Shown here piece after piece: positions 20,043-36,713 of a stretch of DNA of 64,000 nt; within the stretch, counting starts at the first letter, position 1, and each line of letters opens with the position of its first letter. A model generated the notes under the pieces. The model searched no databases, had not been told where the DNA came from, and saw nothing but the letters and a program-made list of their open reading frames with translations. A program made the translations under genes and the position numbers. This stretch comes from Lophium mytilinum (taxonomy: Eukaryota > Ascomycota > Dothideomycetes > Mytilinidiales > Mytilinidiaceae): NCBI GenBank assembly GCA_010093605.1, contig MU004182.1, forward strand, positions 511,028 through 575,027, in the 5' to 3' direction.

Positions 20043-20117
20043 TCCGGTGTGGTTTAGTTGGTTATAATTCGAGGTACCTTTCATCCCCGAGACCCTGGTT
20101 CGATCCCAGGCGCCGGA
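20043..20117 (+). tRNA. tRNA-like gene, unit 1 (anticodon unassigned)
   Basis: 75 bp with a paired 7-bp acceptor stem (TCCGGTG / CGCCGGA with one G-U), an A-box (TGGTTTAGTTGG) and a perfect T-arm and B-box (CCTGG TTCGATC CCAGG). The middle (29-46 of the unit) does not form a normal 5-bp/7-nt anticodon arm: CGAGG could pair with CCCCG with one mismatch and a 10-nt loop. A TTC in the loop (CTTTCAT) would read as Glu if real. A T5 run about 40 bp downstream could end Pol III transcription. It may be a divergent tRNA, a pseudogene or a tRNA-derived transcript. Confidence 0.5.
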
Positions 20118-20305
20118 CGCTTGACGTATACCTTTGCTGTTTGGTGTCCCCGTTTCTTTTTGAACGGTACCTAGAACTAGAAGGGTAAGCCCCACAGAGT
20201 TCTCTTCGTGACGTGTCCTAGGCCGCTTGGACGGAAAGTATTGGCTGGACGCTACGTAGGCAGCCTTGTACGCTTTTATTTTGCGGGTGGTGAATACCTT
20301 TCCAA

Positions 20306-20380
20306 TCCGGTGTGGTTTAGTTGGTTATAATTCTAGGCTTTTTGCTACCTCGAGACCCTGGTTCGATCCCAGGCGCCGGA
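20306..20380 (+). tRNA. tRNA-like gene, unit 2 (anticodon unassigned)
   Basis: 75 bp. The first 28 and last 29 bases are identical to unit 1, so acceptor stem, A-box, T-arm and B-box are intact. The middle is unrelated to unit 1 (TAGGCTTTTTGCTACCT) and again gives only an imperfect stem (CTAGG / CCTCG, 10-nt loop). Its 3' flank (TACCTTTGCTGTT) matches that of unit 1, so the units arose by tandem duplication that included flanking DNA. Confidence 0.5.
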
Positions 20381-20614
20381 CGCATTGCGTGTACCTTTGC
20401 TGTTCCGTGTCGTCTACAGCCCCTATTTCTTTTGACCTACATAGGTAATAGGTAGAGGATAGGGTGGGGCAATTCCACCTGACTTGGCTGTGGGGTGGGC
20501 CGCCCCACACTGTTCCCCATTCGTGTCACGTTCAGCCCCAAACAAGATACCCCCAAAGCTAAGCCTACATAGCCATGTACGTTTTTAATTTTCAGGGATA
20601 GCGAATTCTTTTCA

Positions 20615-20765
20615 TCCGGTGTGGTTTAGTTGGTTATAATTCGGTAGGTGGACTTTCCTGCCTCCGCGAGAGTTTGATGAGTACGAAAAGTGCGAAAAGA
20701 AGCTGATGATGTGGGCGGTAGGGTGCCTTCCTGCTCGAGACCCTGGTTCGATCCCAGGCGCCGGA
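20615..20765 (+). tRNA. tRNA-like gene, unit 3, with a 76-bp longer centre
   Basis: Same 5' 28 bases and same 3' 29 bases as units 1 and 2, separated by about 94 bp instead of 18. The start of the centre can fold as GGTAGG / CCTGCC around an ACTTTC-containing loop. The rest is unmatched, ending CTTCCTGCT before the conserved CGAGACC. It could be a tRNA with a large intron, but an ordinary intron at position 37/38 would leave the anticodon stem shared between units, which it is not. Confidence 0.4.
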
Positions 20766-21280
20766 CTTTGCGGGCGATGATTTTTGTGTTTTTGCGAGTC
20801 GGGGACAGGTTCGATCGTTTTTGGAAACGGCGATGGTGATGATGATCTTTTGGGCGAGCGGGTGGAATTGAGGTGGTTGGTTTAGTTGGGCGTGATGGGG
20901 TTAATGAGATAAGGAATTTAATCAGAGAATTTGGCGTGAACGCTGATAATGGTGGGAGCCTTTCACTTTCAGAGATGGTCTTCGTTTGCTTCTAGCGGCT
21001 GGACAATGTCGTATGAGCACGACGTCTGTTTCGTTGTAGGATGGATGGTGAGGCGTGATGGTTGATGAAGCTTGAGAGCGACTGTCGGGTTCAGATTGAT
21101 GATATCGAGCGAGTCTACATCATGAAGGATGAAACATCATCTGAGTTAGTGAACAAGATTGAGGAAAGAAGAGTCGGAACTAGTTGAGTGCAAGAGTTTT
21201 ACTCAATTGCCATGTGACATAGCCGAAAGGGGCTAGGCATTTTCTATGCTATCGTCCCTCCATCTGTCTCCTTTCTTCAT

Positions 21281-35511: not shown

Positions 35512-36713
35512 ATGTCCAAGACGTTGCAGGCCACCGTCCTGAACCGCATCCTTCGTAGACCGACATTCATCGACGCAACTCGTTCGCGCTCGCAGCTCCG
35601 AAAGCTCCACCTTGCCCCTCCTTATCTCCTCGACGATTACATCCCCCGCTACCATCTGATTTCTGCAGCTGATGCTGCGCGGAAAAGATCGCAGGCGTAC
35701 GCACATCTGCGCGAGTGCAATCTCTGTCCGAGACTATGCGGCGTGAATCGGTACGAGAAAACGGGGACCTGTCTCATCGGCGCTGAGACGGTCAAGGTGA
35801 ACACCATTGCGCCGCACTTTGGAGAGGGTATGTCAATCACAATAGCGATCAGATCTCTCGATTGCAGATGCTAACGGATGCGCGGTGTACAGAGCCCTGT
35901 CTCCAAGGCCACAACGGTAGCGGTAGCGTGTTCTTCAGCGGTTGCAACCTCCGCTGCGTCTTCTGCCAGAACTACGACATCGCCCATCAGCGCAATGGCT
36001 TCGACCTCACCCCCGAAGAGCTCGCACAATGGTACATGAAGCTGCAGGATGTAGGACATGTGCATAATATCAACCTGGTGACGCCAGAGCACGTCGTCCC
36101 GCAGGTCGCGTTATCGATCCTCCACGCGCGAGAGCTCGGCTTGCAACTACCAATCGTTTACAATACTTCCAGCTTTGATAGCTTAGAGAGCTTAGAGCTG
36201 TTGGATGGGCTCGTCGATATATACCTGCCGGACTTCAAGGTCTGGAAGCCGGAGACGGGACGACGGTTGCTGAAGGCTGATAATTACGCGGATACGGCAA
36301 TGGAGAGCATCAAGGCTATGTATAAACAGGTGGGCGATTTGCGTTTCACCGCTGATGGGATTGCCAAGAAAGGCGTGCTTATACGGCATCTGGTTATGCC
36401 TGGGAAAGAGGATGAGGGAAGAGATATTGTGAGGTGGCTCGCGGAGAATGTGTCCAAGGACGTCATGATCCATATCATGGAGCAGTATTTCCCGCGGGCA
36501 CATGTGGGTAAATCAAAGCGAGGTGGCAAGGTATCGCGGGTAATCGAGCCAGGAGGCGTTCAAGCGTCTGCTGAAGCCGAGGAAAAGGTCCGCTACGAAG
36601 ATATCAATCGGCCAGTAAGTCTAGACGAAGTTGCAGGCGTGAGGAAGGCGGCCGAAGATGCAGGCCTATGGAGATTTATAGAGGCGGCGAAGCACGGTGG
36701 GTTCAATATATGA
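35512..36713 (+). CDS. PflX-like radical SAM iron-sulfur protein
   Basis: Two exons (35512-35827, 35893-36713) give 378 residues. The radical SAM motif CxxxCxxC is present as CNLRCVFC (Cys123, Cys127, Cys130). It is preceded by a second cysteine cluster (CNLCPRLCGVNR, then TGTC; Cys69, 72, 76, 87) that could hold another metal site. The downstream motifs NLVTPEHVVPQV, YNTSSFDSLESL, DIYLPDFKVW and LVMPG match the prokaryotic PflX-like group (COG1313), related to pyruvate formate-lyase activating enzymes. These proteins cleave S-adenosylmethionine to make a radical, but the PflX target is unknown. The Arg-rich N-terminus (NRILRRPTFIDATRSRSQLRKL) could be a mitochondrial presequence. No pyruvate formate-lyase is in the window. 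The family is mainly prokaryotic, so ancient transfer is possible. Confidence 0.86.

Follow-up and report, generated by a model that had tools for sequence, protein, structure and literature searches.

A candidate family of Pol III-type, tRNA-shaped genes in Lophium mytilinum in which diverse arms, mostly hairpins, appear to replace the anticodon arm

Introduction

The genome of the ascomycete Lophium mytilinum carries a tandem array of three units that resemble tRNA genes at both ends and do not resemble one another in the middle. This locus raises the question of why the outer halves of a tRNA should stay identical among neighboring copies when the part between them, where the anticodon arm is expected, is different in each. 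The array lies in the window, by which we mean the whole 64,000-nucleotide stretch of DNA analyzed here (assembly GCA_010093605.1, contig MU004182.1, positions 511,028 to 575,027, or C2:511028-575027 in our numbering), and the window was set against the 43.2-Mb genome of this one species in 24 contigs. A preliminary description offered three options for the units, namely tRNA-derived Pol III transcripts, decayed tRNAs, or tRNAs with unusual introns. As far as the sequence allows us to judge, an option of the first kind fits best.

Results

Three tandem units in the window

Direct reading and a repeat search place the three tRNA-shaped units on the plus strand at 20043-20118 (unit 1, 76 nt), 20306-20381 (unit 2, 76 nt), and 20615-20766 (unit 3, 152 nt), each ending with C73. 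The identical outer halves claimed earlier stand with small corrections: the common 5' part is 28 nt, as stated, but the common 3' part is 31 nt instead of 29, including the terminal discriminator base C; the differing centers are 17, 17, and 93 nt instead of 18, 18, and about 94 bp; and unit 3 ends at 20766 and not at 20765. With the variable arm defined as tRNA positions 27-43, the arms are 20, 20, and 96 nt long. Folding gives a weak stem of ~4 bp in the arm of unit 1 (20070-20089), a weak stem of ~3 bp in that of unit 2 (20333-20352), and ~30 bp in the fold of the unit 3 arm (20642-20737), with a z of -2.6. Candidate Pol III terminators, all T-runs on the plus strand, are located 38 nt past the body of unit 1 (20157-20161), 48 nt past that of unit 2 (20430-20433), and 14 nt past that of unit 3 (20781-20785).

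The arm of unit 3 contains a direct repeat of ~20 nt (20642-20661 and 20716-20734), the score of which was reached by 2 of 500 shuffles. The repeat is probably an internal duplication, and the arm may have grown via the duplication of a short hairpin. The flanks are related as well. A block past unit 1 (20121-20147) is shared with unit 2 (20385-20410) by repeat search and alignment, and the 5' flank of unit 2 (20189-20302) aligns with that of unit 3 (20502-20613), which points to local duplication. In the 43.2-Mb genome, the 5'-part pattern occurs without mismatch at only these three places and its reversed control at none; hence, the window units are not a product of chance. At two to three mismatches, nine more places appear genome-wide.

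On one side of the cluster, plus-strand ORFs without a Pfam match end near 19.7 kb, and on the other side a short-chain dehydrogenase occupies 21.3-21.9 kb on the minus strand. Further along the window, an ORF at 35787-36713 appears, from its motif, to resemble bacterial radical-SAM activating enzymes. Just past unit 3, an exact B-box 9-mer (20808-20816) and an exact A-box 12-mer (20878-20889) are the only matches of this kind that the window has outside the three units; they are perhaps the remains of another unit, with longer stretches not significant. A fourth, decayed unit at this place was rejected; the boxes are in the wrong order, and a longer alignment is no better than that of shuffled sequence.

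A dispersed family in the genome

The genome search with both conserved halves, which had been suggested as a check, uncovered a dispersed family of at least 35 members on 12 contigs. The patterns and their relaxed forms derive from the body sequence of the window units themselves, so the census is a lower bound. The reversed control pattern gave no matches in the stricter searches and 22 and 18 in the relaxed searches, against 57 and 60 hits, and relaxed hits were kept only if both halves were present, by pattern or by reading of the DNA. By manual count, 22 of the 35 members lie in eight tandem or near groups. A good body, defined by at least 6/7 acceptor pairs and at least 4/5 T-stem pairs, is found in 30 members, and counts over 30 leave out 2c, 4b, 4c, 15d, and 2e, which have a poor acceptor or T stem. 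Counts over 29 also leave out 8b, with its 12 nt arm; counts over 25 cover arms of at least 24 nt, five of the 30 being shorter; and the alignment of 26 leaves out 5a, 8e, 3b, and 6a, whose trimmed length is other than 66 nt. Arm length ranges from 12 to 155 nt over the 35 members and from 12 to 105 nt in the 30.

The 5' and 3' body patterns had no match in collections of virus and prokaryote contigs, a result with little bearing on other fungi. In the open-access literature, judged by titles and abstract openings and without preprints, we found no description of a family of such layout. A tRNA-shaped, Pol III-type gene family with a replaced anticodon arm thus appears not to have been described previously, although it would be related to known tRNA-derived Pol III RNAs. 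Beside these counts, three tandem members at C15:727875-728294 (L076) lie in an AT-rich neighborhood; by eye, one is intact and two look damaged by C-to-T-like changes, perhaps the mark of repeat-induced mutation.

The center is not a decoding arm

In units 1 and 2, four of the five closing positions can pair in the usual register, but this leaves 10-nt loops, and the combination of a stem, U33, and R37 is present in none of the three window units. That none forms a standard anticodon arm had been noted correctly. The Rfam tRNA model accepts unit 1 (39.3 bits) and unit 2 (40.4 bits) and does not accept unit 3; ARAGORN reads unit 1 as Lys-CTT and unit 2 as Gln-TTG and makes no call for unit 3. 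The three are therefore not a set of ordinary tRNAs with one and the same anticodon.

The wider family gives the same picture. Our decoding test demanded a closing stem of at least four pairs, U33, and a purine at position 37, with the intron, if any, after position 37. Under lenient parsing, 2 of 29 family members passed, compared with all 23 parsed ordinary tRNA genes of the same genome; stricter parsing left one of the 29. U33 occurs in only 3-5 of the 29, depending on which of two parsings is used, and the arm-closing bases differ among members and do not form a common set. The ordinary control consists of 21 of the 30 cut tRNA loci and two of the three tRNA-Glu genes. It leaves out the near-copies L008, L014, L017, and L023; L084; the loci L011, L027, L030, L031, and L032, taken as tRNAs with a long variable arm; and thirteen further Rfam tRNA matches. 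Introns of 9-45 nt at 37/38 are present in 20 of these 23 genes. In the family, the removal of a single inner stretch restores a canonical arm in one of the 29 members, where 0.22 would be expected from shuffled centers.

Among the 28 members at the 17 other loci, ARAGORN called six whole, assigning five different isotypes and leaving one member undetermined; of a seventh it called a part, as Leu. The Rfam model had no match at its cut-off in these loci. Because the isotypes differ, the family does not show one anticodon per body. On these sequence criteria, the family centers do not decode.

The body is kept as an RNA fold

In the alignment of 26 members, 89.2% of the cells in 21 pairs of the acceptor, D, T, and arm-closing stems are paired. 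Fourteen of the 21 pairs have changed on both sides, all five arm-closing pairs among them, and none of 500 shuffles reaches any of the five measures used. Covariation is 0.417 against 0.144 in shuffles, which do not model relatedness; slid versions of the alignment, which keep relatedness, give at most 0.114. A smaller alignment of 16 members shows changes on both sides in 5 of 16 acceptor, D, and T pairs, equaled by 2 of 500 shuffles; there, the number of further pair types is not above that of shuffles (163/500), and the other four of the five measures are.

The tertiary core accompanies the acceptor, D, and T stems, as in a tRNA. U8 is present in 30/30 members; A14, G15, A21, and C48 in 29/30 each; C73 in 27/30; and the exact T-loop TTCGATC in 24/30. 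A run of at least four T residues follows within 60 nt of the body in 29/30 (median 13 nt), whereas random points of the same loci have such a run with a frequency of 0.234. Position -1 is A in 29/30 family members versus 14/30 ordinary tRNA genes by manual count. These core bases, T-runs, and the A at -1 look typical of working Pol III genes. The statement that the Pol III promoter parts have been kept holds, but a promoter-only account is too narrow: neither the acceptor stem nor the discriminator is part of the A or B box, and the stems change in pairs, so it is the RNA fold that is selected. From this pattern of substitution, we conclude that selection keeps the family body as an RNA fold.

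When compared with eight ordinary bodies of the genome, the family is nearest to two tRNA-Glu, Glu-UUC and Glu-CUC (mean identity 0.67-0.68), and the six other isotypes reach 0.52-0.58. A separate Glu-like body at C6:2205556-2205653 (L080) has an arm that is canonical by eye, the anticodon UAC, and an intron; its T stem is poorly paired, its Rfam score is 34.1 bits, and it is possibly a tRNA with a switched anticodon.

Most arms are hairpins

The closing stem has on average 3.6 of 5 pairs within a member and 2.18 when the halves are swapped between loci, a difference reached by none of 20000 permutations. The folding z averages -2.59 for all 30 arms and -2.86 for the 25 that reach 24 nt; 19 of these 25 fall below -2, whereas random segments of the same loci have a mean z of -0.21 and 3 of 72 below -2. 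The folding is not an effect of how members were selected, because they were found by body similarity only. The sense fold is more stable than the antisense fold in 19 arms and less so in 5 (p=0.0005), so selection acts on the RNA.

The largest arms have 43, 33, 30, 23, and 20 bp, and nine of the 30 have at least 17 bp, one of them (8e) branched. The 43-bp arm, at C2:1945928-1946088 (in L067), is a near-continuous rod with a z of -10.8 and, going by its predicted fold, the best candidate Dicer substrate of the family. At the other extreme, six arms (u1, u2, 4a, 8b, 8c, and 6a), including two of the three window units, have only 0-4 bp. For the most part, the arm is a hairpin whose sequence and length are arbitrary and differ between copies. 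The earlier remark that the decoding part has changed is right as far as it goes; across the wider family, the part has not merely changed, since its replacement is usually a structured hairpin. For the two of 35 arms that were searched, 2d and u3, no second genomic copy was found, and a 22-nt piece of the 2d arm has no other genomic site at up to three mismatches.

Arms and flanks may evolve differently

The arms of unlinked loci cannot be aligned (mean z 0.15, largest 3.3). The tandem cluster on C8 (321.7-322.3 kb) has four units, 8a-8d. In each of the six pairwise comparisons, the arms are at chance level (z -1.1 to 0.8), whereas the 5' flanks resemble each other (z 3.2-9.9). The 3' flanks are alike in the three pairs 8a/8b, 8a/8c, and 8b/8c, that of the last unit, 8d, being unlike the others. 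The closest flanks are 74-90% identical, for example, in 53 of 59 bases past 8a and 8b. This comparison suggests that the C8 arms have been exchanged or diverge faster than their surroundings.

The cluster on C17 is the reverse, with a greater similarity among arms (z 2.4-4.8) than among flanks (z up to 2.8), which contradicts any general rule that arms always outpace flanks. Above-chance similarity of arms (z 2.5-3.5) is also seen in the pairs u1/u2, u2/u3, 2a/2b, and 15c/15e. Arm turnover may proceed by diversifying selection, by the one-step creation of hairpins through template switching, or by conversion of bodies and flanks round old arms. Template switching is known as an idea for the creation of hairpins in a single step, and our literature search for such creation in fungal tRNA found nothing.

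Discussion

The anatomy described here is very probably that of a non-decoding tRNA scaffold with a selected hairpin. Dispersed, partly tandem Pol III-type genes would encode tRNA-shaped RNAs that are related to tRNA-Glu and do not decode. In place of the anticodon arm, each would have a substitute, as a rule a hairpin, whose sequence and, mostly, length vary from copy to copy. The tRNA body would serve as the carrier of the hairpin cargo: it would contain the internal promoters, have its ends processed by RNase P and RNase Z, and make the RNA stable. Members with long arms, at the least, would be small-RNA precursors. We lean slightly towards this combination of scaffold and cargo. A small-RNA role of the family is a tentative proposal, about which we are more doubtful than confident. 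Its boldest form, in which one kept body in ~30 Pol III genes displays fast-diversifying hairpins and so provides a shifting assortment of small-RNA precursors or guides, is an unlikely one at present; the hairpins would diversify through selection, or through template-switch and duplication events that each yield a new hairpin in one step, and the targets of such guides may be, e.g., transposons, viruses, or other organisms. On the protein side, the genome has two Dicer_dimer matches and three near-full-length Piwi domains, on C12, C2, and C15. Many further Piwi pieces, some with in-frame stops, occur on C1 at 829-839 kb, 942 kb, 2.12 Mb, 2.19 Mb, and the contig start, and are perhaps an expanded, partly broken Argonaute group.

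The cargo may instead be incidental, which is the leading competing account. If only the body functions, the tRNA elbow and acceptor would be selected, e.g., for binding TFIIIC or a tRNA-handling protein, and the arm would be a free end, needing only enough folding to escape decay. Both this function and this role of the arm seem to us rather unlikely, while deserving serious weight. The six arms with almost no stem are too short for Dicer, and, together with the lack of a second genomic site for the tested arms, they count against a pure small-RNA role and keep the body-only account at that level; the failure of arms to align between loci and the single arm piece searched with mismatches agree with it. 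It does not readily explain why many arms form folds, of up to 43 bp, that far surpass those of random segments from the same loci, nor why the C8 arms are at chance between flanks of such high identity, which is too fast for the drift of filler unless flank conversion is common.

Three further explanations fare much worse than the scaffold with a hairpin. SINE-like retroposons with a tRNA head would account for the dispersed copies, and fungal tRNA-related SINEs exist, as PMC5063351 reports; direct repeats of at least 8 nt flank 3 of the 30 members, a mild excess over the 0.6 expected (2.1% of cross pairs). The copies, however, differ inside the element, and their unlinked 3' flanks share no tRNA-unrelated tail (mean z 0.52, largest 3.1, in 62 sampled pairs); we consider this origin very unlikely and rejected it for the absence of the common tail. 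That splicing of unusual introns restores an anticodon arm is more improbable still. Ordinary tRNA genes of this genome are rich in 37/38 introns and Rfam accepts units 1 and 2 as tRNA, but the decoding test, the rarity of U33, the single restored arm in 29, and the lack of common arm-closing bases all argue against splicing; introns at 37/38 and a single excision elsewhere were rejected, with the ordinary tRNAs as the positive control. Decay of tRNA-Glu pseudogenes is the least credible of all. The nearness to Glu bodies and the five poor members would suit it, but not the paired changes in the acceptor, D, T, and arm stems, the conserved core bases, the T-runs past 29/30 bodies, or the strand-biased folding of the arms, and covariation contradicts it for the good members. 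Neither the decayed tRNAs nor the unusual introns of the preliminary description therefore find support.

ARAGORN and the Rfam model miss most of these genes or assign them arbitrary anticodons; hence, comparable families may have gone unnoticed in the genomes of other fungi. The C8 tandem cluster, with similar flanks round unrelated arms, offers a direct system for studying the origin of hairpins. If the body alone is the product, a tRNA shape would be kept for reasons other than decoding.

Several known systems share parts of this design. AfuSINE2 is likewise tRNA-derived and multicopy and has Pol III boxes; according to the SINE account in PMC5063351, MgSINE folds into a cloverleaf and AfuSINE2 does not, and the latter has a tRNA-unrelated extension, whereas the present family has a covarying cloverleaf body and no common tail. 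The Neurospora milR-4 and murine gammaherpesvirus 68 RNAs are outlined in PMC3547838 as tRNA-pre-miRNA transcripts and combine Pol III transcription, a tRNA part, a hairpin cargo, and RNase Z, features that would also apply to the family. In the arrangement given there (PMC3547838), RNase Z frees a milRNA that is positioned between and after two tRNAs; in the family, the hairpin is the anticodon arm itself (positions 27-43), with a T-run past the body at a median distance of 13 nt. Because the milR-4 milRNA lies outside the tRNAs, this type is, on the account in PMC3547838, a precedent for the pathway and not for the layout. For loci that overlap tRNAs, a re-analysis of hairpin-derived small RNAs in fungi recommends care because of degradation products (PMC9757828).

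Eukaryotic tRNA-Glu genes resemble the family in body sequence and fold, in the acceptor, D arm, and T arm, in the A and B boxes, and in the T-runs. The three ordinary Glu genes of the genome (L083, L084, and L085) have A73, whereas the family has C73, lacks an anticodon arm with U33 and R37, and has a hypervariable arm in its place. A similar layout is known from the laboratory: in tRNA scaffolds and tRNA/pre-miRNA chimeras, the cargo RNA is built into a tRNA body at its anticodon arm. If the hairpins of the family are cargo, nature uses the same trick; the laboratory scaffolds are man-made, whereas the family is a natural multigene set with a similar layout.
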